From Candidatus Nomurabacteria bacterium (GTDB taxonomy: Bacteria > Patescibacteriota > Minisyncoccia > Phycocordibacterales > UBA5272), in assembly GCA_028286645.1 (NCBI GenBank), contig JAQBRF010000004.1, positions 155,501-205,191 of the forward strand: a DNA stretch of 49,691 nucleotides, written 5' to 3'. Each line of letters opens with the position of its first letter. Within the stretch, counting starts at the first letter, position 1. Positions 2,504-33,551 of the stretch are shown in pieces. The notes under the pieces are model-generated. The model worked only from the letters and a program-made list of their open reading frames with translations. It was not told the origin of the DNA and did not search any database. Position numbers and translations under genes: made by a program.

Positions 2504-3604
2504 ATGTTTGAACGCGTAGATAAAACACTTTTAACTATTACTGTCGTCCTCCTTATTGGAGGGTTAGTAATTTTTTCTTCTGCCGCTCTGGGCGTTTTAT
2601 CAGTTAATGAGGCGAAATTTTATTCAGTTATAAAAACTCAGCTTATTTACGCTCTTATCGGCGGGTCTATAATGCTTTATGTTGGAAGTCTGATTCCATA
2701 TAATTTCTATAGAAAGTACGCTTATATTTTATTTTTTGGAGCATTAGTATTAACTACATTAGTATTTATTCCGGCGCTATCTCAGTATCACGGAGGCGCA
2801 CATAGATGGATCGATATTGGATTTATTTCATTCCAGCCTAGCGAACTGCTAAAGTTCTCATTTGTAGTAGCTGTGGCATTTTGGTGTTCTAGGTATAGAA
2901 ATAACTTTCGGGATTGGAAATTTGGGCTTCTGCCTTTTTTAGGAGCTCTAGGCGTAGTATCCATTATTCTTTTAATGCAGCCTGACTTTGGCACTTGGAC
3001 GGTAACTATCATGTCAGCATTCGCGGCTTATTTCGTAGGAGGGGCCCGAATGAAGCATATTTATATTTTAGTTTTATGTGGCTTTGTGGGTATTGCTGTT
3101 TTGATCGCCGTACGTCCATACATGCTTGAGAGAATTAAAACATTCGTAAATAATACTCACGATCCTAGGGGCTCTTCTTGGCAATTAAACCAATCACTCA
3201 TAGCTCTTGGTTCTGGGGGCTTAACGGGCAGGGGATTGGGCCAAAGCGTGCAGAAATTTAATTATCTCCCAGAACCAATCGGAGATTCTGTATTTGCCGT
3301 CTTAGGAGAAGAAATTGGTTTTTTCGGGGTCATAATCCTAATTGTCTTATATGGTATATTAGGATGGCGGGGCTATATTATATCGATGACCTCGAGTGAT
3401 CAATTTGGACGATTACTCGCTATAGGAATTACGGTTATCATTTTAGTCCAAGCTAGTTTAAATATAAGTTCAATGCTTGGGATTATGCCTTTAACTGGCG
3501 TGCCTCTCCCGCTAGTTTCTCACGGAGGAACTGCGCTCATGGTAATCTTGTTTGAGATCGGAGTGCTCTTAAATATTTCAAAAAACTCACAAAACCTAGT
3601 ATGA
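2504..3604 (+). CDS. ftsW: FtsW/RodA-type lipid II glycosyltransferase
   Basis: SEDS-family membrane protein that polymerises lipid II into glycan strands during division. It has about ten hydrophobic segments and the usual SEDS landmarks: GGAHRWIDIGFISFQPSE, a DFGTW motif, a large extracellular loop holding LGQSVQKFNYLPE, and a C-terminal PLVSHGGTALM. Position between mraY and murG favours FtsW over RodA. The stop overlaps the murG start by four bases (ATGA), so translation is probably coupled; no SD is seen. Confidence 0.92.
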   Translation: MFERVDKTLLTITVVLLIGGLVIFSSAALGVLSVNEAKFYSVIKTQLIYALIGGSIMLYVGSLIPYNFYRKYAYILFFGALVLTTLVFIPALSQYHGGAHRWIDIGFISFQPSELLKFSFVVAVAFWCSRYRNNFRDWKFGLLPFLGALGVVSIILLMQPDFGTWTVTIMSAFAAYFVGGARMKHIYILVLCGFVGIAVLIAVRPYMLERIKTFVNNTHDPRGSSWQLNQSLIALGSGGLTGRGLGQSVQKFNYLPEPIGDSVFAVLGEEIGFFGVIILIVLYGILGWRGYIISMTSSDQFGRLLAIGITVIILVQASLNISSMLGIMPLTGVPLPLVSHGGTALMVILFEIGVLLNISKNSQNLV

Positions 3605-15929: not shown

Positions 15930-15958
15930 ATACTACAATACTATATAGAGCGTGTCAA
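15930..15958 (-). promoter_or_regulatory. Promoter whose -35 box contains the polymerase stop codon
   Basis: TTGACA (15958-15953), 17-base spacer, TAGTAT (15935-15930). The TGA within TTGACA is the stop codon of the upstream polymerase gene (15957-15955), so the unit begins without spare sequence. Confidence 0.8.
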
Positions 15959-17364
15959 TTACACCAAGCCATTCCTAAGTAAGGCACTGCCACTCGCCTC
16001 TTGGCACTTTCGCCGAAGAGTATGACCCCTCTTCTTTCGGGGACCTTCTCTTTTCCTCCTACATGGCGCGGATCTGTAACTGCATTAAATGATGAACCAA
16101 GGAAGACCGTGTTCTTCCCGAACTTCTGTGTTACTAGGTCTAGATTTTTATAAAGATTCTGTAATCCTATCTTTCTGCAAATATTTCCAAATAAATCGAG
16201 CTGTTCTACTTTTTTTGTCTCAAGTTTGGTTAGCCACACTCCAGTCGCTCTATAATCTGTATGGGGCTTATATATCTTTGTGAAATTTGTCGCAGCTTCT
16301 CTGATTATGTCTATTGGATTATTGGTCGAATCTCGTAGCTTTACTTCGACTGTGTGATATCCGAAGTCTTGAGTTTTAAGAAATATAGCAATTGAGTTTA
16401 TGAGAAGATCTTCTTTTCTGGCTCGCGATACTGCTTCTTCTATATTTTTAGAAAGCTGAGAGAAAAGGAAAGCTTTATCTTGGCTAGGAGGAGTAAATGT
16501 CTTTGTCGTAGAAATGCTTTTATGCTTTTCCTTTGTGACATTTACTTCCCATACGGATTCGCCATTTAATTCCATCCACATTTCCTGCATTGGCTTGTAA
16601 AAGACTTTCTCAACTGTTGTCTTTTGCATGCGAGCGATTTCTATTGCATTTTGAATATGCATTTTATTAAGTCTCTCAGTGGTCTTTTTCCCTATATTCC
16701 ATATCTTTCGTACTGGAGTTAATTTTAAATACTTTTCTATATCTGCTTTTGATATGACGGTCATTCCATGAGGCTTCTTCCACCCGCTTCCTAGCTTGGC
16801 TATTACCTTTGTGGGACCGAGTCCGACACTGAAGCTCACGCCAAGCTCTTTGTATAAATCATTGCTTATTCTTTCCGCGATCCCTTTATAAGTTAATCTA
16901 TGAAATCTCTGCAGTCCGGTGATGTCTGCGAAGCATTCATCAATTGAGTATTCTTCTACTACTGAGGTGTAGCGTCGCACTATAGAATACATTCTCTTTG
17001 AATATATCGTATATGTTTCATAGTCTCCCGGCACTACTATCACTTCCGGAAATTTCTTTTTTATTTCCCATACTGGCATAGCGCGCGTTATGCCCAAGCG
17101 TTTTGCTTCTATACTGATGGACGTCGCTATTCCTCTTTCCGCTCCGGTTACTATTGGTTTGCCGCGAAGGTTTTTATTTTGCGCTTGCTCGACAGACGCG
17201 AAGAATGAATCGCCGTCTATATGAAGAATAGCTTTTGGGAAAAGACTCGCAGAGTTAGATATGGATTCTATTAAGGATGGAGTTTGAATGATTGCGACTC
17301 TCTTAGGGTCTGTAGTTGATAGCAGATTCTTTTTGTCTAGCTGAGTGAATGTGATTGTGTTCAT
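15955..17364 (-). CDS. Y-family translesion DNA polymerase (UmuC/DinB type)
   Basis: Error-prone polymerase for bypass of damaged bases. Palm residues are visible: HIDGDSFFASVEQ (Asp50, Asp52) and EYSIDECFADITG (Asp142, Glu143). KLGSGWKKPHGMTVI and KIWNIGKKTTERLNKM mark the palm end and thumb/HhH region, and the little-finger domain follows (TFTPPSQDKAFLFSQ). Residues 1-43 are an extra N-terminal stretch absent from DinB. It starts 18 bases after the lexA stop, an arrangement like umuDC, so it is most likely SOS-controlled from the operator at 17953. UmuC versus DinB is not decided. Confidence 0.9.
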   Translation of the reverse strand: MNTITFTQLDKKNLLSTTDPKRVAIIQTPSLIESISNSASLFPKAILHIDGDSFFASVEQAQNKNLRGKPIVTGAERGIATSISIEAKRLGITRAMPVWEIKKKFPEVIVVPGDYETYTIYSKRMYSIVRRYTSVVEEYSIDECFADITGLQRFHRLTYKGIAERISNDLYKELGVSFSVGLGPTKVIAKLGSGWKKPHGMTVISKADIEKYLKLTPVRKIWNIGKKTTERLNKMHIQNAIEIARMQKTTVEKVFYKPMQEMWMELNGESVWEVNVTKEKHKSISTTKTFTPPSQDKAFLFSQLSKNIEEAVSRARKEDLLINSIAIFLKTQDFGYHTVEVKLRDSTNNPIDIIREAATNFTKIYKPHTDYRATGVWLTKLETKKVEQLDLFGNICRKIGLQNLYKNLDLVTQKFGKNTVFLGSSFNAVTDPRHVGGKEKVPERRGVILFGESAKRRVAVPYLGMAWCN

Positions 17365-17382: not shown

Positions 17383-17943
17383 TTATTTATATTTCCTAAT
17401 GACTGCTTTTAATACTGCTTCTATCTTTAGGGTTTCGGGTTTGGGATATATTTTCCGGAATTTTCTGTTTGCGGGCACAAGAACTGGGTTTCCATTTTCT
17501 AGTTCTAGGTATTTAAGCGTATATTCGTTTTCGACGAGTGCGAGTACGATGTCCCCTCTTACGGCTCTCTTTCCCCTCTCTACCAGCACCAGATCTCCTT
17601 CCATTATTCCCGCGTCCTTCATGCTTTCGCCCCTTACTTCAAGCATGTATGTCGATTCTTTTCTTTCTATTAAAAACTCATCTAGGGACATCAGGTCAGA
17701 TACGTCTTCATCAGATGGTGATGGGAATCCTGCTTGTACGGTTCCTAATCTCATTACTGTTCCGGTCTGAGTGAGTGATAATTTGTTCCCAGTTTTTTCT
17801 AGGATTCCTTCTTCTATCATCTTCCGGACTCTGTAAGCCACTGTGTTCTTCGAGGAGACATTAAAGAGGCTGCACATCTCTTCGTATGTCGGCATCCTCT
17901 TAAATTTATTAAAAAAGTTATTTAGTATTTCGCTGTCTTTCAT
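17383..17943 (-). CDS. lexA: LexA-type SOS repressor (possible UmuD-like role)
   Basis: N-terminal winged-helix domain (residues 1-60, MPTYEEMCSLFNVSSKNTVA) joined to a C-terminal S24 autoprotease. Cleavage should occur at Ala71-Gly72 (TVQAGFPSPSDED); the catalytic pair is Ser107 in GESMKDAGI and Lys144 in EYTLKYLEL. Length 186 is normal for LexA. The ATG lies seven bases after the TACACT -10 box, so the mRNA should be leaderless, and the promoter is covered by a perfect palindrome, consistent with self-repression. The downstream polymerase makes this a compact two-gene damage-tolerance operon. Confidence 0.9.
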   Translation of the reverse strand: MKDSEILNNFFNKFKRMPTYEEMCSLFNVSSKNTVAYRVRKMIEEGILEKTGNKLSLTQTGTVMRLGTVQAGFPSPSDEDVSDLMSLDEFLIERKESTYMLEVRGESMKDAGIMEGDLVLVERGKRAVRGDIVLALVENEYTLKYLELENGNPVLVPANRKFRKIYPKPETLKIEAVLKAVIRKYK

Positions 17944-17952
17944 GTATTTTAG

Positions 17953-17978
17953 TGTATTAGAACAAACGTTCTAATACA
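17953..17978. promoter_or_regulatory. SOS operator (perfect 26-bp palindrome) over the lexA promoter
   Basis: TGTATTAGAAC and GTTCTAATACA form exact 11-bp arms around AAAC. The core GAAC-N4-GTTC matches the Gram-positive SOS box. On the minus strand TTGTAT and TACACT (17-base spacer) are interlocked with the palindrome, so a bound repressor would block polymerase. Confidence 0.88.
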
Positions 17979-18107
17979 AGGAAAAAGAGTGGATAAACAT
18001 ACGGTTATTAGAAATTGGTTATTAGTAATTAGAAAATGGTGGATTCTCAATACTATTTCCAGAATGGGAGTTGACGGAGTTTAAACTTCTTCTTGTGGTT
18101 TGGGTCG

Positions 18108-18136: not shown

Positions 18137-18196
18137 AAATATAATTGCTGTTTTGATTATTAACTTTTGCGCAGTGCGCAAAGAAAGGTAAAGAAG

Positions 18197-18640
18197 ATGT
18201 CAGATCATCAGTTGGCACTTACCGCACTCGCGTTCGGACTCCTGATCATCGTGTCTCATTACGTGTACGCCGCGAGCTTACTCGTGAAGCTTTCTCAAGA
18301 GCCTGAGAACATTCTCGGGAACTGCTGGAACAGCACATTCTCCTACATGCTCGTATGGTTCGGCGGTCCGACGATGATGGCTGCCAGCTTGCCCTTCTGG
18401 TATCTTGAGGTGTTGAACCATACGGCGCGTACCGTCGAGCAGTTGTTTGTAATCGCGCTCGCCAGTCTCTGGGCTGGGTACCTACTAACGCTTCCCATCA
18501 TTCGCGTGATAGTTCTGGTCGCATTCCCGGGGACGCGGTTCCGCAGGTGGTATTCTCTGAAGATTCTGTATCTCGGAGAATCTCTCCTCGACCAAATGCA
18601 CAGAGAGATTCAAGTCCTCCGTAGACGTGCGCGCCTTTAA
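18197..18640 (+). CDS. Multi-helix membrane protein, SD-led unit (147 aa)
   Basis: No family recognised. Three or four membrane segments (LALTALAFGLLIIVSHYVYA; YMLVWFGGPTMMAASLPFWY; LFVIALASLWAGYLL with LPIIRVIVLVAF) are followed by a basic cytoplasmic tail (MHREIQVLRRRARL). The ATG at 18197 is chosen over a TTG at 18167 because a purine-rich SD-like stretch (GGTAAAGAAG) precedes it. First unit of the tandem row, reading away from lexA; strongly GC-rich with CGC/CGG arginine codons unlike the AGA-rich native genes. Confidence 0.66.
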   Translation: MSDHQLALTALAFGLLIIVSHYVYAASLLVKLSQEPENILGNCWNSTFSYMLVWFGGPTMMAASLPFWYLEVLNHTARTVEQLFVIALASLWAGYLLTLPIIRVIVLVAFPGTRFRRWYSLKILYLGESLLDQMHREIQVLRRRARL

Positions 18641-18673
18641 TCCGTTCCCCAATTCTTTCCACCTCAACCAAGT

Positions 18674-18701
18674 CCCCGCACTCGCTGCGGGGGCATTTTT
18701 T
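18674..18701 (+). terminator. Intrinsic terminator
   Basis: CCCCGC (18674-18679) pairs with GCGGGG (18687-18692), followed by a T-run, 34 bases after the stop. Confidence 0.88.
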
Positions 18702-18752
18702 ATTTAGATTATAATTACACCCAACTTTAAGTTTTTTCAGTATTTAGTATCA

Positions 18753-18781
18753 TTGACAGCACCATCTATTTATGGTATACT
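18753..18781 (+). promoter_or_regulatory. Promoter of the 18816 unit
   Basis: TTGACA (18753-18758), 17-base spacer, TATACT (18776-18781). Confidence 0.85.
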
Positions 18782-18815
18782 ATAATAGTCTCGTTCTATA
18801 CATAAAGGTTACATT

Positions 18816-19175
18816 ATGGAATATAAGCTTTGGGAGCCCATGCCTCCAGCATTCGGAGAGGCCTCACCCGAGGTCGCAATCCTCGGTGGCACTGTATTCC
18901 TCGTCATAATCGTTCTTTCGTTCATGGCGGCTGCCTGGGTTACCGTGCGGCCGTCGGACCTGGAAGATGACCAGGACGACGAAACTACGCTCGATCGAAT
19001 GCATGGCGAGCTGAAGACGTTCGTGCGGCAGTACAAAAAGTGCCGTGCAGCGTTCGGGATATTCGCCAGCCAGTTCGACGATCTGGACGGATTCGCATGG
19101 TTCATCGCGAACCTGTTCATCTGGACGTATGTCCTCGACCCTCATCATCGCACCGTCTTCGAGTATCTGTTCTGA
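18816..19175 (+). CDS. Single-helix membrane protein, SD-led unit (119 aa)
   Basis: No family recognised. A short acidic N-terminus (MEYKLWEPMPPAFGEASPE) leads to one helix (AILGGTVFLVIIVLSFMAAA), an acidic linker with DLEDDQDDETTLDRMHGELK, and a C-terminal aromatic region (GFAWFIANLFIWTYVL) that may dip into the membrane. AAAGGT lies six bases before the ATG. Promoter and terminator are its own. It stands between another membrane protein and a soluble cysteine-cluster protein. Confidence 0.64.
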   Translation: MEYKLWEPMPPAFGEASPEVAILGGTVFLVIIVLSFMAAAWVTVRPSDLEDDQDDETTLDRMHGELKTFVRQYKKCRAAFGIFASQFDDLDGFAWFIANLFIWTYVLDPHHRTVFEYLF

Positions 19176-19198
19176 AGTGTCCTTCAACCTCAACTCGT

Positions 19199-19258
19199 CC
19201 CGCACTCACACTGCGGGGCGGTTTTTTATTTGACACAAACATTAAATTAGAGGAGGAT
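19199..19258 (+). promoter_or_regulatory. Fused terminator and promoter
   Basis: The CCCGC/GCGGG terminator stem (19199-19203, 19213-19217) has a T-run at 19222-19227 that runs into TTGACA (19230-19235) of the next unit; a 17-base spacer leads to GAGGAT (19253-19258). The -10 box is weak but keeps A2 and T6. Confidence 0.7.
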
Positions 19259-19301
19259 TAAACTGAATTCCTATTAACGCAACATTAGTGAGGAAACCTG
19301 T

Positions 19302-20249
19302 ATGGCTATGAACAAGCTCGAGTCCAGCCCCTTGGTTCATTTCGAATCTAGGGACCGCCGCTTGCCTGAATGGTTCCGCTTAGGCTTCAGCTTCGGGACT
19401 GACGGCCCCGATCCTCTTCCCCCGCAAATCATTCTTGCGGTCGAGAAGTCCGCGCTAGTTCACTTTATGGAGGATATCGAAAGGAACACTCTCGTTAAAT
19501 ACGCAGGTGAGCACTTGACTCATCGGAACGCCAGTGCTGAATTTCTCACCGATATTCGCGAGCCGTGGGGCTTCGGTGGGATTCTCAAGCCTTATGCCCC
19601 TGCCGAGCCGAATGACTTTCTCCACTTCGCGATCAATATTCCGCGGGTAGAGAAAGAAGCCGGGTTTTGCCGAGATTGCGAGGGTACGGGAAAGGATCAG
19701 ATCACCGGTCAAGGAACCTGTCATCGTTGCAACGGAAGTAAGAAGGAAACGAAGCAGGATCAAAGCGAACTCAACATGATTTCGGCGACGCTTTGTGCGA
19801 TCCATCCGCTTCTAGAACGGCCATACGAAGTATGGCTGCGCGATGTGAAGGATGTGGGGCGCCCACAGCTCCTTTCACTCATCACGAGCTTCGGACCTCA
19901 ATGCCCGTTTATTGCGGTGGTTTTCTCCCCTGAGGTTGTCGGCTTTCTAGCCCGAAATGCAGGGCGCACTCTGCCGCAAATAGAGAGCGCCATGTGGAAG
20001 ACATACATTCAAATGGTGCCGGGTTATGAAAGGTACGGGCCCTATGGCTTTGAAGCGTCGGTCGATCGTGAAGGATGTCCGAGTTTCAGTGTTTCGCGCG
20101 ACGCCCTAATGTCCGTGAGCGGGTTTCGGCAGCCTTCGAGCAGGGATAGGATGAAATTTGATTCGACCGAAGTGATGAGCTACCATCAGCAAGTTTCACT
20201 TCTCGCCGGCATTGCCATGCTTTGCGATATGGTGAAAACCACTCGATAA
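19302..20249 (+). CDS. Hypothetical protein with DnaJ-like cysteine cluster, SD-led unit (315 aa)
   Basis: Function not recognised. Residues 123-144 (CRDCEGTG, 13 residues later CHRCNG) have the CxxCxGxG spacing of one DnaJ zinc-finger half-site, with Cys123, Cys126, Cys140 and Cys143 as likely zinc ligands. There is no J domain. The rest is soluble alpha/beta sequence with PQLLSLITSFGPQCPFIAVV and FEASVDREGCPSFSV. GAGGAA precedes the ATG by six bases. It is the largest gene of the tandem row, and its GC-rich codons and private promoter/terminator match its neighbours. Zinc binding is inferred; chaperone activity is not implied. Confidence 0.66.
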   Translation: MAMNKLESSPLVHFESRDRRLPEWFRLGFSFGTDGPDPLPPQIILAVEKSALVHFMEDIERNTLVKYAGEHLTHRNASAEFLTDIREPWGFGGILKPYAPAEPNDFLHFAINIPRVEKEAGFCRDCEGTGKDQITGQGTCHRCNGSKKETKQDQSELNMISATLCAIHPLLERPYEVWLRDVKDVGRPQLLSLITSFGPQCPFIAVVFSPEVVGFLARNAGRTLPQIESAMWKTYIQMVPGYERYGPYGFEASVDREGCPSFSVSRDALMSVSGFRQPSSRDRMKFDSTEVMSYHQQVSLLAGIAMLCDMVKTTR

Positions 20250-20286
20250 CTCGGAGCGAACGCTCTTCTTAACTTCAACCTTTTAC

Positions 20287-20310
20287 ACCCCGCCTCGGTG
20301 GGGTTTTTAT
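20287..20310 (+). terminator. Intrinsic terminator
   Basis: CCCC/GGGG-based stem (20288-20303, with inner CC/GG pairs) followed by GTTTTTATTTTATTT. Confidence 0.82.
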
Positions 20311-20344
20311 TTTATTTAAATCTTTTTCATTTCATTTTTTTGAA

Positions 20345-20535
20345 ATAAAAAAGCAAACCTGATTGGTCTGCGATAATGGCAGCGGATAGATAAGGAGCGG
20401 TATCTCACTGGTGGCTCCCCGAGGACTGGCGTCCCTGAAACACGATTAACTGTGTCCCCATGATATGCGTATATTCTGCATCTCATCGTTTCAATGCCTC
20501 CCGCCTATTCTGCACAAATCTATCCGCCGCCGATT
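20345..20535 (-). ncRNA. Candidate structured non-coding RNA
   Basis: No ORF. On the minus strand a long closing stem joins 20518-20531 to 20378-20391 (ten perfect pairs, one mismatch, three more). Inside are small hairpins: GGAC/GTCC, ACAC/GTGT and GGAGC/GCTCC. A terminator follows at once: GCAGACC/GGTTTGC with TTTTTTATTT (20371-20345). No consensus promoter is clear in the AT-rich sequence at 20540-20570. No match to tmRNA, RNase P, 6S or SRP RNA signatures that I know. Confidence 0.55.
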
Positions 20536-20579
20536 TAAATAATAACACATTCTTACAATTGCATATTTTTATTTAATAG

Positions 20580-20608
20580 TTGACTAAACACTATAATTAT
20601 TGTAGTTT
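20580..20608 (+). promoter_or_regulatory. Promoter of the 20654 unit
   Basis: TTGACT (20580-20585), 17-base spacer, TAGTTT (20603-20608). Confidence 0.75.
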
Positions 20609-20653
20609 AGAAGTAAAGTGATTTCGGTCATACTAAAACCATAGGGAGTTCTC

Positions 20654-21145
20654 ATGTTGAATCGAAAGGCTGTTCGCCGAATGATTGTTCTTGGCGCGAT
20701 AGTAGGGTTTTCCGCTTTTTTCTATCCTGAGACGAAAGATATGGTAGAGAGAAAGCAGGACGGATACCTCGTCCCTTTCGCTCAAGCCGCTGTAAGGAAC
20801 GTGATTACCACAGTATCTTTCGCGCGAGATGGTGACGAGATGGGTGATGCCATGCGCATGTGCAGTAATACTCCACATGAATATCACGTAAACGCACAAA
20901 GCTTCTGGATCACGTGCAGCGTGTCCGCGGATTTCTACCGCACGCTTTCATCTTCGGACGTCGAAGGCGGGCCGGCTCTAGAGGTTATCCAGACCACTCG
21001 TCTGCAGTTAAAAGACGGAGCAGTTCTCATCGCTCTTGGTTACAAAGTGAAGAACATCTTCGTCATCGCTCAAGCGTGGAGGCAGAAGCTCGACGAAGAT
21101 GTGATGCGAGGAGAAATCTCACGCGTTGAGAAATTCGTCCCATAG
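20654..21145 (+). CDS. Secreted or membrane-anchored hypothetical protein, SD-led unit (163 aa)
   Basis: No family recognised. Basic N-terminus (MLNRKAVRRM) plus a hydrophobic stretch (IVLGAIVGFSAFFYP) looks like a signal anchor. The rest is an outside domain with two cysteines (MRMCSNTPHEY and FWITCSVSAD) that could pair, and beta-like ends (ALEVIQTTRLQLKDGAVLIA). GGGAG lies five bases before the ATG. Own promoter and terminator. The candidate minus-strand RNA just upstream is divergent from it. Confidence 0.66.
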   Translation: MLNRKAVRRMIVLGAIVGFSAFFYPETKDMVERKQDGYLVPFAQAAVRNVITTVSFARDGDEMGDAMRMCSNTPHEYHVNAQSFWITCSVSADFYRTLSSSDVEGGPALEVIQTTRLQLKDGAVLIALGYKVKNIFVIAQAWRQKLDEDVMRGEISRVEKFVP

Positions 21146-21166
21146 GAGCCTTTTCACACCCCTTTC

Positions 21167-21190
21167 GCCCCGCGCGATCGGGGCTTTTTT
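21167..21190 (+). terminator. Intrinsic terminator
   Basis: GCCCCG/CGGGGC stem (21167-21172, 21179-21184) followed by six T residues. Confidence 0.9.
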
Positions 21191-21225
21191 ATATTTATCA
21201 AAACCTTTCCTAAATGAAAATAGAT

Positions 21226-21254
21226 TTGACATATAATCTTTTATATAAGAGTAT
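21226..21254 (+). promoter_or_regulatory. Promoter of the 21286 unit
   Basis: TTGACA (21226-21231), 17-base spacer, GAGTAT (21249-21254). It lies inside the longest frame (from 21214) and so rules out that upstream ATG. Confidence 0.68.
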
Positions 21255-21285
21255 AGAAAACGTACTCTCACCTACGGAGAAGAAC

Positions 21286-21459
21286 GTGGAAACTGCGACT
21301 GTGAAATACCATGTAGTGGTCCAACAAACGGGCGCCGGCTCATGGGCGCATCTGAAAGACAATAAGGAAGTGGGAGCCCACGGACGCAACCAAAACGAAG
21401 CCGTCGGGGCAATGGTGACAGCGTACCCGAATATCTTCTCCGTTATTGTGGAGAAATAA
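21286..21459 (+). CDS. Small protein, SD-led unit with GTG start (57 aa), weakly DUF2188-like
   Basis: Begins at GTG with CGGAGAA upstream; the product reads METATVKYHVVVQQTGAG and ends NIFSVIVEK. The pattern of a YHVVV strand, a short GSWAHLKDNKE turn, an Asn/Glu/Ala helix (HGRNQNEAVGAMVTAYP) and a last strand loosely recalls DUF2188-type small alpha/beta proteins; this is a weak resemblance. Own promoter and terminator, inside the tandem row. Confidence 0.6.
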   Translation: METATVKYHVVVQQTGAGSWAHLKDNKEVGAHGRNQNEAVGAMVTAYPNIFSVIVEK

Positions 21460-21490
21460 TGGCGGAAGTGAATCGCTTCTTCACCGTTAT

Positions 21491-21557
21491 CCGCTTAAGG
21501 CTGCCCTAACCCGGCGGTTTTTATTTGCTTGACTTAGTTTTATATTAATTACAAAAT
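21491..21557 (+). promoter_or_regulatory. Terminator followed at once by a promoter
   Basis: CCGC (21491-21494) pairs with GCGG before TTTTTATTT (about 21515-21525); TTGACT (21529-21534), 17-base spacer and CAAAAT (21552-21557) follow for the 21606 gene. Confidence 0.6.
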
Positions 21558-21605
21558 GTAAGAGATTCAAGTTCTAAACCTTTTAAACATTGTGAAGGAA
21601 AGATT

Positions 21606-22070
21606 ATGGCGAAGAATCCTCTTGCTAAGGCCACGGAAGATCTGATCAATGCCGCGGAAGAAAAAGGCGCAGATAGGAAAAAGTTCAAAAGAGCCCTGCT
21701 GCTGTTTCTGATGGAGAATTTCTCGAAGGAAGTCATCGTCGACGTTATGCTAGCCTTCAGTCCCCAGATGCTGGATTCTGTTTCCAAAACATCCCCGCCG
21801 TCTCGGCTGCTTGATACGGATATAGCTCTCCATCCGGTCTTAAATGAAGTCCTGTATGGCCAAGGGTTGGACACTCGAATTGAGAATCAGTGCCGCGCTG
21901 AAGGTATGGAGCGGACAGGAGATCTGGTCGTAAGGTCTTCAAAAATTCCCAACTTAGGAAGACGGTCATATCAGAAAATTGACGACTTGCTGGCTGTTCG
22001 AGGTCTCAAGCGTGGTATGGATGTCCTGGGCTGGCAGTCAAAACCCCTTCAGTCGGGAAGCCCCACCTGA
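21606..22070 (+). CDS. Free-standing RNA polymerase alpha C-terminal-domain-like protein (154 aa)
   Basis: Residues 90-140 align without gaps, from memory, to the E. coli RpoA C-terminal domain: TRIENQCRAEGMERTGDL matches VRSANCLKAEAIHYIGDL, and IPNLGRRSYQKIDDLLAVRG matches [20 protein letters not shown], then GMDV near GMRL. DNA-contact positions corresponding to E. coli Arg265, Asn268, Gly296, Lys298 (here Arg) and Ser299 are kept (Arg91, Asn94, Gly118, Arg120, Ser121). The polymerase-assembly domain is missing; residues 1-80 are a different helical domain (KKFKRALLLFLMENFSKEVI). It could bind AT-rich promoter DNA. AAGGA is the SD. Fold confident, role inferred. Confidence 0.72.
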   Translation: MAKNPLAKATEDLINAAEEKGADRKKFKRALLLFLMENFSKEVIVDVMLAFSPQMLDSVSKTSPPSRLLDTDIALHPVLNEVLYGQGLDTRIENQCRAEGMERTGDLVVRSSKIPNLGRRSYQKIDDLLAVRGLKRGMDVLGWQSKPLQSGSPT

Positions 22071-22095
22071 TTCGCCCCCGATAGAAATAGCTTCA

Positions 22096-22148
22096 CCTCG
22101 CTTCTCGGCGGGGATTTTTTTGACAAGCATAAGAAAAAAATGCAAGAT
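22096..22148 (+). promoter_or_regulatory. Fused terminator and promoter
   Basis: CCTCGC/GCGGGG stem (22096-22101, 22108-22113), T-run 22115-22121. The next -35 TTGACA (22120-22125) takes its first bases from that run; 17-base spacer; CAAGAT (22143-22148). Confidence 0.72.
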
Positions 22149-22182
22149 GTAAGTCAAGCTCATAATTGAAAGGCGTAGTGCT

Positions 22183-22524
22183 ATGTCCAGCTCTTTGTAT
22201 GAACCGAATTTTGGAGAGGCATTCTATCCGTTTTACCAGGAGAGGATCCTCGAAGCTCTTAGGAAGCTTCCAGATGATAGCCCGGCACACGAGCGTGAGA
22301 CGCAGCTCCGGCTGATCGCTCAAGTTCAGCTGCATTTGGAGACCGACCGCAAGGTGTATGTCAACAGCGCGATGGGATCTAGAATTTCCCGTCAAGTGGG
22401 TCAGGATCTGGAGAATATCTGGAGTCAAATCAAAGTTGAGCAACTTGCGGGTTTCTCGGATGAGCAGATGAAGCTCTATCAGACCTTGGACTCAATGGTT
22501 CGTACTCTGTTGGTTTACAAATAA
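22183..22524 (+). CDS. Hypothetical helical protein, SD-led unit (113 aa)
   Basis: No family recognised. Soluble and almost all helical: FYQERILEALRKLPDDS, then ERETQLRLIAQVQLHLETDR and QVGQDLENIWSQIKVEQL, with a final LYQTLDSMVRTLLVYK. It could be a small helical bundle or dimer. The SD is weak (GAAAGGCG, nine bases from the ATG). Own promoter and terminator within the tandem row. Confidence 0.62.
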   Translation: MSSSLYEPNFGEAFYPFYQERILEALRKLPDDSPAHERETQLRLIAQVQLHLETDRKVYVNSAMGSRISRQVGQDLENIWSQIKVEQLAGFSDEQMKLYQTLDSMVRTLLVYK

Positions 22525-22540
22525 GTCCTCCTCACTTAAC

Positions 22541-22595
22541 CCGTCGCGAAAGCGGCGGATTTTTATTTGACACTTATATTATAAAAAAGTAGGCT
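22541..22595 (+). promoter_or_regulatory. Fused terminator and promoter
   Basis: CCGTCGC/GCGGCGG stem with GAAA loop (22541-22558), T-run, then TTGACA (22567-22572), 17-base spacer, TAGGCT (22590-22595). Confidence 0.75.
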
Positions 22596-22627
22596 AAACT
22601 AAATTCCCACCACTGGAGGTCGTCATC

Positions 22628-22918
22628 ATGACTTCGCTTGAGCAAGTTGTTGCGGAAGAAAGAAAACGGCTGGAAGCCGAGTTCCCGAAATTCTTGGCGG
22701 ACATCAATGGGTCCCAAGATTATTACTCTATGTATGTATTGGCTCAGGCTCTTGTAAAGGCCAAAAAAGGAGAAGCACAAGCTGCAATTGTCGGAGAAGT
22801 CAAAGACTTCGATGGCACAAGCCGCACCATCACAGTGGAAGAAGAACGGCGACTGTGGCGGTTAGCTAACACCTTGTCCGGTGAGTCGATGGTTCAGTCT
22901 CATATCGACTTTTTATGA
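22628..22918 (+). CDS. Hypothetical protein, SD-led unit (96 aa)
   Basis: No family recognised. A charged helical N-terminus (LEQVVAEERKRLEAEFPKFL), a central SQDYYSMYVLAQALVKAKKG helix, a small strand pair (AAIVGEVKDFDGTSRTITV) and a C-terminal helix. GGAGGT precedes the ATG by seven bases. Last member of the tandem row; its terminator is followed by native minus-strand genes. Confidence 0.62.
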   Translation: MTSLEQVVAEERKRLEAEFPKFLADINGSQDYYSMYVLAQALVKAKKGEAQAAIVGEVKDFDGTSRTITVEEERRLWRLANTLSGESMVQSHIDFL

Positions 22919-22935
22919 ATCCCGTTCGCTCGATT

Positions 22936-22960
22936 ACCCGCTTCACGGCGGGTTTGTTTT
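22936..22960 (+). terminator. Intrinsic terminator ending the tandem row
   Basis: CCCGC/GCGGG stem (22937-22941, 22948-22952) followed by TTTGTTTTT. Confidence 0.85.
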
Positions 22961-23029
22961 TGCCCTGTAACCTAAGCAAAAGTTGGTAACAGAACTTATC
23001 CTATATAATGCTCTGCTTTGATATAGGCT

Positions 23030-25311: not shown

Positions 25312-26196
25312 CTATTTTTTTACCATGTACATATCCTGTCCGAAGCCTCCTACGCCAACGAATTCTACGCAGTCATCATTATTCAATATCCATTCATAAG
25401 GGCGGCATCCTTGGCAACCGCCTTCTCGAGTCTTCGGATCGTATGGTCCATTCGGGCAAACAAATACTTTTTCTGGGCCCATTCTGCCGGCTTCCTTCCT
25501 TGCCTCTTTTACTTTATACGCTACATCAAACACATCTTTATGAGCTTTTTCTAAATCTAATAATGGAACTTCTACTAATTTGTCGCTTTCTAAATACCAA
25601 TAGCTAGCACGCGTCACTTTTCTTTTTTGAAGCGCATTACAAAGCAAAAGATAAATGGGCAATTGCAGCGACCCATCTTTCTCTTCATTCTTTCCAGTTT
25701 TGAAATCAATTATATGAAGGGAGTCCGTTTCGGGTAAGTATTCTATCCAGTCCACTAATCCATTTAAAATAATGTTGTGATCCTCGCTTATGTAATAGTT
25801 GCACGGCATTGTGTCGCGCTTTAACTTAATGCATTTTTTCACTAAGAACTTAGGATCTTTTATTACATTTTCGATCATTTTCTTTCCGCGTGCCTTAAAT
25901 TCATTCTCTTCCTCTAAAGAATTAAATCCTCCCATTTTCCCCGAAACCTTTTTCCAGGCTTCTTCATACTTTTTCAGCAAGTCATAACTCATGCGTGTAT
26001 CGGCTGGATAATCACCCAAGCCTTCTAAAACCTCATGCACAGCTACTCCTAAAGCCATGTGAGGATTTACTATAGACATCTTGTGTCCAGTCGCAGGATT
26101 TTTATACATGTTATGTAAATAATACAGTCGCGGGCATTTCAAAAAATCTCCCATGGAGGAGTGTGATACCCATACTGCACTATATTTATCCGCCAT
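25312..26196 (-). CDS. PD-(D/E)XK nuclease family protein (RecB/AddB/Cas4-like)
   Basis: Nuclease fold with an opening SSMGDFLKCPRLYYLHN helix, GVAVHEVLEG (motif I His), NGLVDWIEYLPETDS (motif II Asp), IDFKTGK (catalytic DxK) and LQLPIYLLLCNAL (motif IV). The early cysteine (KCPR) and a C-terminal cluster (VCPNGPYD and GGCQGCRPYEW) resemble the four-cysteine Fe-S site of AddB and Cas4. No cas genes are nearby, so a recombination or repair role is more likely. Start 26196 is set by TATACT six bases upstream (leaderless). It could work with the helicase-nuclease 1 kb away. Confidence 0.84.
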   Translation of the reverse strand: MADKYSAVWVSHSSMGDFLKCPRLYYLHNMYKNPATGHKMSIVNPHMALGVAVHEVLEGLGDYPADTRMSYDLLKKYEEAWKKVSGKMGGFNSLEEENEFKARGKKMIENVIKDPKFLVKKCIKLKRDTMPCNYYISEDHNIILNGLVDWIEYLPETDSLHIIDFKTGKNEEKDGSLQLPIYLLLCNALQKRKVTRASYWYLESDKLVEVPLLDLEKAHKDVFDVAYKVKEARKEAGRMGPEKVFVCPNGPYDPKTREGGCQGCRPYEWILNNDDCVEFVGVGGFGQDMYMVKK

Positions 26197-26254
26197 AGGA
26201 ATAGTATAGTGCAGAATCTCCAATTAACAATTTCTGGTTTACAAAAAAATCTGC

Positions 26255-26527
26255 TTGACAATCTATTTTGTTAGATGTAGATTATATTTGTGATACTGCT
26301 TCGTGGTGGTCTTACGGGACCAGCTTCCGGCTAGGGGTGACGAGCCTCCACAGACACAGCCCCGAGCGATTAGCGGTACCTACTATGTGCTGTTATTTCC
26401 AGGACAGTATCACACTGAATAAATGAATTACTCTCCGCCTAGGCGAGTAACAAATGGACGGACTAATAATCCGTGCCGACCCTCAGGATGTTGCTTCAAG
26501 CTTCATATCGTCCTGAGGGGTTTTTTA
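26255..26527 (+). ncRNA. Candidate structured non-coding RNA with own promoter and terminator
   Basis: TTGACA (26255-26260), 17-base spacer and TAGATT (26278-26283) put the 5' end near 26290. From there GTGATACTG (26290-26298) pairs perfectly with CAGTATCAC (26405-26413), closing a 124-base domain with several inner hairpins (for example GGCT/AGCC). Two small hairpins follow (around GCCTAGGC, and ACGGA/TCCGT), then a terminator CCCTCAGGA/TCCTGAGGG with TTTTTT (26480-26526). No ORF with an SD. Matches no RNA family I recognise. Confidence 0.65.
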
Positions 26528-26533
26528 TTGTAT

Positions 26534-26670
26534 TTGCAATATTTTTAGTGAGTGATATATTATTTATAACCACCCGCACGCAGAAGTTGTCTTCCATCCT
26601 CTGAGACGATAGATGCGAGAATCTCCCCGATTCGCGGGTGGCCTCCTGACATTTCTGTCAGGGTTTTTTA
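26534..26670 (+). ncRNA. Candidate structured non-coding RNA (about 100 nt)
   Basis: TTGCAA (26534-26539), 16-base spacer, TATATT (26556-26561). The transcript would begin near 26568 at CCACCCGC (26570-26577), which pairs exactly with GCGGGTGG (26634-26641); inside is a GAATC/GATTC hairpin. A separate terminator CCTGAC/GTCAGG with six T residues follows (26645-26669). Unrecognised. Confidence 0.62.
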
Positions 26671-26693
26671 TTTTTATCCCAATTCCATCCTAT

Positions 26694-26938: not shown

Positions 26939-27319
26939 TTGACAAATCCTGCAGGTTTGCTATACTGTATTTGTGAAGGGGTAGAGAAGTTTTTCTCCTC
27001 TCCACATCGCTGTTCGTTTCAAACCTTCGTGAAGTTCGGGCCTAATTAAGCCCTTGAAATAGTAAATGTTTCACCCTCGTGTGACATGCGAGCCTAGCGC
27101 TCGCCGACTCTGTGTAGGTAGTAGCAAGACCCCCTTGCCTGCCGATGGGCGCCCTTCGGTAGGTTTATCCTTCGAGAGTAGGTGCGGTTGCAAGTTGATT
27201 CTATTGCGAAGTTGGCCAATCCAGAAAGCAAGGCCGCAGTACCCGGGTAGCAGCAGACGGTTCATCGTCTCCTGCTCCCGGGGTTTGTTTTTTCCCGCTC
27301 TGCATTCGCAGGGTTTTTT
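26939..27319 (+). ncRNA. Candidate long structured non-coding RNA (about 320 nt)
   Basis: TTGACA (26939-26944), 16-base spacer, TATACT (26961-26966), so RNA should start near 26973. GC-rich and hairpin-rich (GGGC/GCCC at 27040, GCGAGC/GCTCGC at 27090) with no SD-led ORF; a 96-codon frame at 27066 runs through both terminators and is rejected. It ends with a large terminator stem (CCCGGG 27242-27247 with 27277-27282, inner AGACG/CGTCT) plus T-run, and a second one to 27319. Not tmRNA (no TTCGA arm) or RNase P (no GGAAAGTCC) by inspection. Confidence 0.62.
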
Positions 27320-27360
27320 ATTTGAAAATAAAAGTCTAAAATCTATTAGAAATTAGTGAA

Positions 27361-30300
27361 TTAGATATTTCCTTGTATTAAGTCTTCCTCAAATTCTTTT
27401 ATACCCACCAGCGACTTTTCATATTTGGATGTATCTGGAAAATCTAGCGCACATATCTTTTTATACACTGCCATTATTAATTGCTCCAATCTTTTCACTT
27501 CTTCTAAAATATTTTTATCTTCGAATGAAAGTGAGAGTTCTTGTATTTTATTACCTGTTGATTGCTCTACAAATTCCAAGCACCCCTTCTTCACCTCATG
27601 AGTATTGTGATCACGAGAATTTTCTACTAAAATTTTATAAAACATTAACTGGTATCTATAATGATGCAATTTTATTTTGTCATATACGGTAGTCTTGCCT
27701 TCATCCCAGTCATCATATCCCCGTCCAGTTTTTAAATCTATCACTGTCCATGAATCGTTATCTCCTTTTACTATTTTATCTATCTTTCCGTTTATATATG
27801 AGCCGTCTAATTGAACGCATTGCTTGGCGAAGTTTAATTCTACTATATCTTCTGCCTTAATTTCATCTTTTTTTATTTCAATATATTTTTCAAGCGCTCT
27901 TTCACCTCTCTTTCTTTGCTTCTCTTCTTCATAATCCGGGAGTCTGCCCTTTTTAAGTTCCTTTCTGAATGATTCAAATACTTTTTCTATATCCGGAAAG
28001 GCTCCATCTTTGCGTATGAGAATATGAGCATCTTCTATTGCTTTGTGAATTGCCGTTCCGTATACATTGCTGACTGATTTAGCCTGCGGGAAGCGAAGTA
28101 AGTTTTGCTCGAGAAATAACAATGGTCCTCCTTCCATAACATTTAAGAAATTATTTAAGTGTGTCGGCGGAAGCATATAGCCTTCTATTACTTTTTTGAG
28201 CAACGCTTTCTCATCTTTCGCAAAAGGAGGAATGTGATAAACCTGTAACCCTTCAGCAAGCAGCTCGCTTTGCTCTACTTCTGTGACGCCTTTATCAGTG
28301 TCTGGTAGATCCGGATGCGACAAAAATCTAAGAGGACTTTTATGATGAGTTATATAAAGAGTGTGCCTTGCTCTTGTAATGGCTACATAAAATAGCCGAA
28401 TAAAGTCATCTTCCTCGTCGCCTGTCTGTTTGAGTCCTAGAAGGTTTATCGGGAATGATAATTTATTTCCCTTTGGTCTTCCTGCCCAGATGTCATCGTT
28501 TACTGAAATTATAAATACATAATCAAATTCAAGCCCCTTCGCGCTATGAGAAGTAAGCAGTGAGACAGAATTTTCATTATGAGCAAATGGGGTTTCATTT
28601 ATAAGAGGAATATTATAATCCACATGCATGTCGACAAACTCCCCCACGTCACGAGCTAAAAGTAATGTCCCCTCTTTATAATTTCGAAGTGCCTGCATGA
28701 AGACTCGAAGAGATGAAAGGAAATGTATGTATGATGCTGGATTTTCTTTAAATACGCTTTTACCAAAGTAATATTCTTTATAAGGAGAAGTAAAGGGAGA
28801 TTCGAGGTTTAGAGCAATGAGTGTAGGTTCCTCATCTTCGTTTTCTGATTCCGGAGTCCGCGGAATGTCCTTGCTTCCTATGAGGGCGTCTAAGATAATT
28901 TCAAGCGGAATTGTTTGTGATAATGTTCCAAGCTCTATTAAGAATTGGGCGAGCAAATGCATTTTTTCATCAGTGCTCTTTTCCATTGCTTCAAGCCAGG
29001 AAATGTTTTCTCTTTTGGCATTTTCTGCAACCTTCCAAATAGAAATTCTGCCAAGACCCCAAAATGGGAATGATAAAATCTCTGGCAGATACTCATCCTT
29101 TTCCCACTGCTCTCCGCCCACTGTTGATAAAAATCTACACAGAGTAATTAATTCCTTTACATGCACCTCATCAAACACATTTTCTTTTCTGGTGTATGTA
29201 TATGGAACATTTAATTTATCCATATATGGCAAGATAGAAATAAGCTGTCTATGCTCGCGTGCAATAACTGCGATTTCTTTCGCAGGAACTCCATTTTGTA
29301 AAAGTTCTTGTATCTTTTTGCTTGTGTACGCGTACTCTTCTATGTCGGTTCCAAAGGCGCAGGTATGAATTTCTCCAACTGGGAGGTCTTTATTTTTCGC
29401 TTTTAAATCTTTCCTTACATCTTTATAAATAGTTTCCAATCTATTTACTCCTTGAGTTACAATTGCGCGCGCGAAGTCTAATATCTTCTGGGTGGATCTA
29501 TAGTTTTCTATAAGAACAATTCTTTCTACATCTTTATAAAGCTCGCTAAAGGAATGGATGTTTGAAATTTCTGCCCCCTGGAATCGATAGATCGCCTGGT
29601 CATCATCCCCGACCACGCACACATTCGGTCGTCCTTCATGAACTGGATTGCTCGATAATGCTTTTACGAGTTCTAGCTGAGCGTTATTCGTATCTTGGAA
29701 TTCGTCAACCATTATGTAGTGATAAAGCTCTTCAATCTCAGTGCGAAGTGTTTCATTCTTTGAAAGAGCGTCCACCACTTGTAAAATCATGTCTTCATAA
29801 TCGAAATATCCTTCTTTGTATAATGCCTTTTGATACATTTTATAAATATCTACTAAGGCATACAGCTTAGACAATGATAGAAAATCTTTAAACACCCTGT
29901 TTCCATCTTCATCCTTACCTGTATATTCTGTCTTCCATCCAGATAGCGGCGTATTTTTCTCTGTGGCTTCTGCTAATGTAAGAGCGTTTTCTATGCTCTT
30001 CGCATACATTGATCCGATATTTGTGCCGCTTTTCTCAAACTCCATTCGCATTACTTCAAAAGCGGAAATAGAATCTTTCCCGATGCGTTCTGGCAGGTGT
30101 TCGGAAAGTATTTTATTTAATTCTACAAGAGCTTTTTCATTTTCTTCTAATATTTCTTTAAATCTGTCTGGAGATAATCCGCCCTTTTTTATATCCTTAA
30201 TTCTTCCCTGCGCTTCTTTTAGATAGGCATATCCTCGTTCCGGATGATATCCCCCTAAAACATGCTTATGCTCTAATCTTTCAAATATGTTTTTTAAAAT

Positions 30301-30702
30301 TTCACTTTGAATTAAATCGCTCGCTGGGCGAAAGTGCGTGGCTTCGAAGAAATATTCCGGATATCGGCCGATGATATCGGTGCAAAATCCATGGAATGTG
30401 TAAATTGCCACTCTATATGCATCTGCTCCTATCAAATTTTCCAATCTCTCCCGCATATTTAATGCCGCGGTTTCAGTAAAGGTAAGGCAAAGAATGTTAT
30501 ATGCCCTTGCGCGCCCTTCTTTCAGTATTTTCCCCACACGGAGAGATAATAACTCAGTCTTCCCTGATCCAGGTCCAGCAATCACCATAACTGGGCCGTC
30601 GGTAGTGTCTACAGCTTTCTTCTGTCCTTCATTTAAGGATTTGTATCGTGCGTCAAACTTTCTATCCAAATCACTTTTTTGTTCGTTTCTAGAAATTGCC
30701 AT
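27361..30702 (-). CDS. UvrD/PcrA-type helicase fused to C-terminal PD-(D/E)XK nuclease
   Basis: Large (1113 residues) superfamily 1A helicase-nuclease resembling AddA/RecB. Walker A is AGPGSGKTE (residues 42-50); Walker B is MVDEFQDTN; VVGDDDQAIYRFQGA is motif III, TSHSAKGLEFDYVF motif V and RLFYVAITRARHTLY motif VI. The C-terminal nuclease has YGTAIHKAIED (motif I), NGKIDKIV (motif II), WTVIDLKTGRG (DxK) and HHYRYQLMFYK (QxxxY-like). It likely resects or repairs double-strand breaks, perhaps with the PD-(D/E)XK protein at 25312. TATACT lies nine bases before the ATG. Confidence 0.9.
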   Translation of the reverse strand: MAISRNEQKSDLDRKFDARYKSLNEGQKKAVDTTDGPVMVIAGPGSGKTELLSLRVGKILKEGRARAYNILCLTFTETAALNMRERLENLIGADAYRVAIYTFHGFCTDIIGRYPEYFFEATHFRPASDLIQSEILKNIFERLEHKHVLGGYHPERGYAYLKEAQGRIKDIKKGGLSPDRFKEILEENEKALVELNKILSEHLPERIGKDSISAFEVMRMEFEKSGTNIGSMYAKSIENALTLAEATEKNTPLSGWKTEYTGKDEDGNRVFKDFLSLSKLYALVDIYKMYQKALYKEGYFDYEDMILQVVDALSKNETLRTEIEELYHYIMVDEFQDTNNAQLELVKALSSNPVHEGRPNVCVVGDDDQAIYRFQGAEISNIHSFSELYKDVERIVLIENYRSTQKILDFARAIVTQGVNRLETIYKDVRKDLKAKNKDLPVGEIHTCAFGTDIEEYAYTSKKIQELLQNGVPAKEIAVIAREHRQLISILPYMDKLNVPYTYTRKENVFDEVHVKELITLCRFLSTVGGEQWEKDEYLPEILSFPFWGLGRISIWKVAENAKRENISWLEAMEKSTDEKMHLLAQFLIELGTLSQTIPLEIILDALIGSKDIPRTPESENEDEEPTLIALNLESPFTSPYKEYYFGKSVFKENPASYIHFLSSLRVFMQALRNYKEGTLLLARDVGEFVDMHVDYNIPLINETPFAHNENSVSLLTSHSAKGLEFDYVFIISVNDDIWAGRPKGNKLSFPINLLGLKQTGDEEDDFIRLFYVAITRARHTLYITHHKSPLRFLSHPDLPDTDKGVTEVEQSELLAEGLQVYHIPPFAKDEKALLKKVIEGYMLPPTHLNNFLNVMEGGPLLFLEQNLLRFPQAKSVSNVYGTAIHKAIEDAHILIRKDGAFPDIEKVFESFRKELKKGRLPDYEEEKQRKRGERALEKYIEIKKDEIKAEDIVELNFAKQCVQLDGSYINGKIDKIVKGDNDSWTVIDLKTGRGYDDWDEGKTTVYDKIKLHHYRYQLMFYKILVENSRDHNTHEVKKGCLEFVEQSTGNKIQELSLSFEDKNILEEVKRLEQLIMAVYKKICALDFPDTSKYEKSLVGIKEFEEDLIQGNI

Positions 30703-33394: not shown

Positions 33395-33545
33395 TTGTTG
33401 TTTTTATTAAAATTGTGTTAATCTGTAGTTGGTTCCGGCGCTCTACCCTAGGGCGTTCCTCGGGACCGGATGGAGCTCTTCGGAGCAACATCACACGGTT
33501 TGGCCCGCGAAGGTCCTTGGAAAGGATCCTCGCGGGCCCTTTTCA
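33395..33545 (+). ncRNA. Candidate structured non-coding RNA (about 120 nt)
   Basis: Possible promoter TTGTTG (33395-33400) with TAATCT (33419-33424), 18-base spacer. The RNA folds into GGTTCCG/CGGGACC (33431-33437, 33461-33467) with an inner GC hairpin, then a GATG/CATC plus GCTC/GAGC helix with a GA/AA internal loop and TTCG-like tip (33469-33492), then a long terminator stem GGCCCGCGA/TCGCGGGCC (33502-33510, 33530-33538) and CTTTTC. No ORF. Unrecognised. Confidence 0.64.
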
Positions 33546-33551
33546 TTTCAG

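Follow-up and report, generated by a model that had tools for sequence, protein, structure and literature searches.

Does a GC-rich stretch with a strong promoter and terminators in the genome of a Candidatus Nomurabacteria bacterium (genome size 0.86 Mb) encode a divergent housekeeping RNA, a new RNA, or something else? An earlier note, made from the DNA letters alone, had left the choice between the first two. We followed up this locus computationally within the stretch of DNA that contains it (contig JAQBRF010000004.1, positions 155,501 to 205,191; 49,691 nt, hereafter referred to as the window, whose numbering is used unless another locus is named) and in related genomes. The genome size is in keeping with the Patescibacteria. 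The standard bacterial genetic code was applied throughout, because the genes of the window use TGA as a stop.

A promoter and two terminators enclose an ORF-less unit

The focal unit consists of the following features:
26939-26966, + strand: promoter TTGACA-16 nt-TATACT with extended -10 (TGCTATACT), from a consensus scan
26973-27238, + strand: predicted transcript body without SD-led ORF, from a frame and SD search; folding as a whole not above chance
26973-27005, + strand: 5' hairpin GUGAAGGGGUAGAGAAGUUUUUCUCCUCUCCAC, from the MFE fold
27242-27283 (to 27293 with TTTGTTTTTT), + strand: first intrinsic terminator, a long GC-rich hairpin, from sequence, fold and terminator scan
27297-27314 (to 27320 with the T-run), + strand: second intrinsic terminator, hairpin GCTCTGCATTCGCAGGGT plus T-run, from the terminator scan

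The promoter matches 11 of the 12 consensus positions and has a TG preceding the -10 element, which bears out the earlier reading of a strong TTGACA/TATACT promoter. Across the whole window, promoters of equal quality occur six times, compared to a mean of 1.9 in shuffled sequence. At the other end, the stem arms of the first terminator (CCCGGGuAGCAGcAGACG...CGUCUCCUGCUCCCGGGG) are followed by TTTGTTTTTT, and the terminator block as a whole folds far better than shuffled sequence (z -6.3; 0/100 shuffles as stable). The two consecutive terminators that had been proposed are thus indeed present. The predicted start lies at about 26973 and the predicted ends at about 27293 or 27320, giving a length of about 320 nt to the first and 348 nt to the second terminator. 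The size of about 320 nt and the elevated GC content (0.52 for the unit vs 0.40 for the window) agree with what the earlier note had stated, but this GC content is not distinctive, as several gaps of the window that hold small protein genes reach 0.43-0.49.

The frame and SD search did not detect any SD-like motif on the + strand of the focal unit. The sole long + frame (27066-27356) lacks both an SD and a Pfam match and continues through the two terminators; the remaining + frames are short. The absence of an SD-led frame was therefore read correctly for the + strand. On the minus strand, the SD scan picked up a frame of 64 aa (27265-27071) with an SD-like AGGAG near its ATG. At the level of sequence, an ORF-less unit running from promoter to terminator is thus confirmed, and it has both its own promoter and an intrinsic terminator, as bacterial intergenic sRNAs do.

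The promoter belongs to a class that is widespread in the order

The pattern TTGACA-N13-TGCTATAMT, with the spacer left free, is present in 171 of 397 genomes of the order, whereas the reversed-pattern control gave two hits. This distribution argues for a general promoter class and, judged by sequence, the focal promoter is a member of this common strong class of the order and not a dedicated switch. Downstream of close copies of the focal promoter in other genomes of the order, small SD-led genes are usually found. In the same genome, nearly the same promoter drives short, ORF-less, terminator-ended units at two loci (L002 1380-1545 and L003 1370-1545, minus strand); as they resemble the focal layout, such units apparently recur in this genome.

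The spacer of the focal promoter contains a near-palindrome, CAAATCC-N3-GGATTTG, which is shared with two other promoters of the genome, those of the L002 and L003 units. We considered a special operator, i.e. a repressor site, and dropped this idea, as the order-wide class has variable spacers in which the palindrome is mostly absent. The LexA-like gene of the window (17383-17943) was likewise rejected as an operator partner, as its own upstream box differs (TTAGAAC..GTTCTAA). This LexA-box-like palindrome (TATTAGAACGTTTGTTCTAATA, 17944-17990) is positioned directly 5' of the gene, whose product we take from its protein sequence to be LexA/UmuD-like; the gene is followed by 15955-17364, presumably encoding a Y-family polymerase-like protein.

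As a separate observation, the promoter match at L073, L075, L082 and L085 in related genomes is followed by a common leader of about 150 nt (TTAAYARCAAGC...RAGGNTARCC...), which in L082 and L085 ends with GGGATTTTTAATT ahead of a gene starting MKATEEE. From its sequence, this leader looks like a conserved cis-regulatory RNA.

Folding of the predicted RNA resides mainly in the terminators

The focal unit as a whole folds with a z-score of -3.8, which is because the terminator block carries the folding signal. The body (26973-27238, 266 nt) reaches a z of -1.1 against dinucleotide-shuffled sequence, with 13/100 shuffles as stable, and the z-scores of neighbouring coding transcripts, -2.7 to +1.1, span this value. 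The many hairpins that the earlier note had listed are therefore not borne out, as the body behaves like its shuffles and like coding neighbours. Its 5' part (26973-27103) folds mildly better than chance (z -2.3, 0/100 shuffles) and forms one good hairpin. Elsewhere in the window, a short GC-rich ORF-less stretch at 33395-33551 has strong hairpins and a terminator (z -4.4, terminator included).

The focal RNA is an orphan and matches no housekeeping RNA

The search against Rfam models that had been proposed for variants of RNase P RNA, tmRNA and 6S RNA was run on the window at gathering scores and returned no match; a lax search gave only chance-level hits. RNase P RNA and tmRNA of the same genome are located elsewhere (G000:C5:467772-468104, 126.5 bits, and G000:C3:7964-8358, 94.7 bits, respectively). 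The focal RNA resembles RNase P RNA (RF00010) in size and GC content only, and tmRNA (RF00023) in size only, and ARAGORN found 0 genes in the window. With 6S RNA (RF00013) it would share the nature of a stand-alone noncoding transcript, but its predicted fold is not a single long rod. The 6S model matched neither the focal RNA nor anything in 16 genomes of the genus, where the model may not reach this lineage, and in a scan with the whole library the covariance models of bacterial SRP RNA did not match the focal RNA either.

The body was also not found beyond its own genome. In blastn searches of the focal region against the 16 genus genomes, it was recovered from its own genome only, and the few other matches were to the promoter. 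The RNase P RNA of the genome, used in the same way as positive control, was recovered in 15 of the 16, and the sensitivity of the search is therefore adequate. Searches across the family (21 genomes) and the order (397 genomes) likewise returned the body from its own genome only. The order-wide search is coarser than the genus blastn, as several RNAs were joined into one query and two candidates were scored per genome, and two of the loci that the query itself came from are missing from its results. The lineage-wide conservation expected of a 6S-type housekeeping RNA is accordingly not seen. An origin from a phage or plasmid was dismissed, as blastn gave no match to either, and two exact patterns from the body were absent from IMG/VR viral contigs. 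In the literature on noncoding RNAs of this lineage, we found nothing bearing on the focal RNA.

Size and GC content alone agree with a divergent housekeeping RNA (RNase P, tmRNA, 6S or SRP). With RNase P RNA and tmRNA residing elsewhere, no Rfam match and no conservation in a genus in which RNase P RNA is readily recovered, we reject this explanation as extremely improbable. As no homolog was found in any of the genomes searched, the other option of the earlier note, a new RNA, holds only weakly: it stands in the sense of an orphan and not of an RNA with a conserved structure or function.

The unit lies in a slot where small genes come and go

The focal unit is flanked by two genes:
25312-26223, minus strand: gene for a PD-(D/E)XK nuclease family protein, from protein domain and neighbourhood comparison
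27361-30702, minus strand: gene for a UvrD-type helicase carrying a PD-(D/E)XK nuclease domain at its C-terminus; convergent to the focal RNA

The pair is a conserved feature of the genus, and the interval between the two genes varies from nothing to about 3.3 kb. In all nine relatives examined, the interval holds unrelated small genes, which are mostly SD-led and in some cases have a separate promoter and terminator. By sequence comparison, it is a turnover slot in which small orphan genes are gained and lost. Within it, the focal genome has one frame of 51 aa on the minus strand and three units without an ORF, the focal unit being the longest of the three.

The second of these units (26255-26530) starts from a promoter TTGACA-17-TAGATT; its body is closed by a GUGAUACUG/CAGUAUCAC helix and is, taken alone, not above chance (z -1.25), and a strong terminator ends in GAGGGGTTTTTTATT. 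The third, short unit (26533-26672) consists of a long imperfect hairpin (CCACCCGC...GCGGGUGG) and a terminator (z -5.7, terminator included). A GC-rich, well-folding and apparently ORF-less unit of about 230 nt was also observed in a relative (L044, slot of G012, about 3063-3350), where it adjoins the nuclease gene at a position equivalent to that of the 26255 unit. Outside the slot, a run of small + strand genes at 18167-22970, several of which have a promoter and a terminator to themselves, displays a similar cassette-like layout.

Weighing the explanations

We tentatively favour a noncoding RNA of about 320-350 nt that is restricted to the species and transcribed on its own, with a standard strong promoter of its lineage and a double terminator, residing in the turnover slot; this explanation leads the others, while falling somewhat short of an even chance. 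Nearly as likely is a decayed small-gene cassette, i.e. a gene with promoter, SD, small ORF and terminator that lost its frame and ribosome site and kept promoter and terminators. The small genes occupying the slot in every relative examined, a body without structure beyond chance and a body GC content near that of neighbouring small genes all fit such decay. However, the promoter and the two terminators remain intact and close to consensus, a state that would be unusual for a long-decayed gene, and low-stringency blastn did not reveal any remnant similarity to a slot gene.

A small protein as product is unlikely, be it an SD-less peptide from the + strand or the 64-aa product of the minus-strand frame. 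SD-less and leaderless translation occur in bacteria, and the minus frame, with its 64 open codons, was detected in the SD scan. Its AGGAG, however, is built from bases of the terminator stem and lies just 3 nt from the ATG, and promoter and terminators are oriented the opposite way, while the frame on the + strand extends across the two terminators and is without a Pfam match. We likewise consider it improbable, and slightly more so, that the focal RNA acts as an antisense or interference RNA on the convergent helicase gene, whose mRNA, if it extended beyond the stop at 27361, would be complementary to the RNA over its full length. About 40 nt separate the end of the RNA from the helicase stop, which lies on the other strand, and we found no clear T-tailed helicase terminator in between (by reading the sequence; the scan lists none on the minus strand). 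Yet the RNA does not overlap the helicase coding sequence, and relatives retain the helicase gene without the focal RNA.

Discussion

The focal unit is real as sequence, of an ordinary kind and an orphan: it has a promoter and terminators, lacks both an SD-led + frame and a homolog in the genus, and lies in a slot that turns over in relatives. We infer from this sequence that it is transcribed, with an RNA rather than a peptide as product, and a stand-alone noncoding transcript is probable, as promoter and both terminators exceed chance. In the species-restricted noncoding RNA that we favour, transcription would start from the strong promoter at about 26973 and be ended by the double terminator, within a slot of small-gene turnover.

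Whether this RNA would also function by base pairing is more doubtful, and we regard a functional sRNA of this type as possible at rather less than even chance. If functional, it may be a young trans-acting sRNA that pairs with mRNAs, in which C-rich stretches could bind to SD regions, and the 5' hairpin together with the 3' terminator might protect the RNA. Against a functional noncoding RNA stands the body, which does not fold above chance, and homologs are lacking in the genomes searched, so that covariation and signs of selection are likewise absent. Complementarity to the 54 gene starts in the window was not enriched (mean -25.5 vs -25.4 kcal/mol for shuffled RNA), and no signal above shuffles pointed to trans targets among these gene starts. 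Like generic bacterial intergenic sRNAs, the focal RNA has its own strong promoter, intrinsic terminators, no SD-led + frame and a stable 5' hairpin, and many young sRNAs are similarly species-restricted; however, it is longer than most, and the structure of its body does not exceed chance. A wider scheme appears unlikely: a genome-wide set of young noncoding cassettes with near-identical promoter and terminator and unrelated bodies that enter small-gene slots, with the focal RNA as the longest member and a functional species-specific regulator.

Size, GC content and visible hairpins are not enough to identify a housekeeping RNA, and conservation measured against an RNase P RNA control settles such a question quickly. 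If the focal unit is expressed, it would illustrate how bacteria with very small genomes continually acquire and discard short orphan units, coding or noncoding, that are transcribed independently and sit at fixed places.
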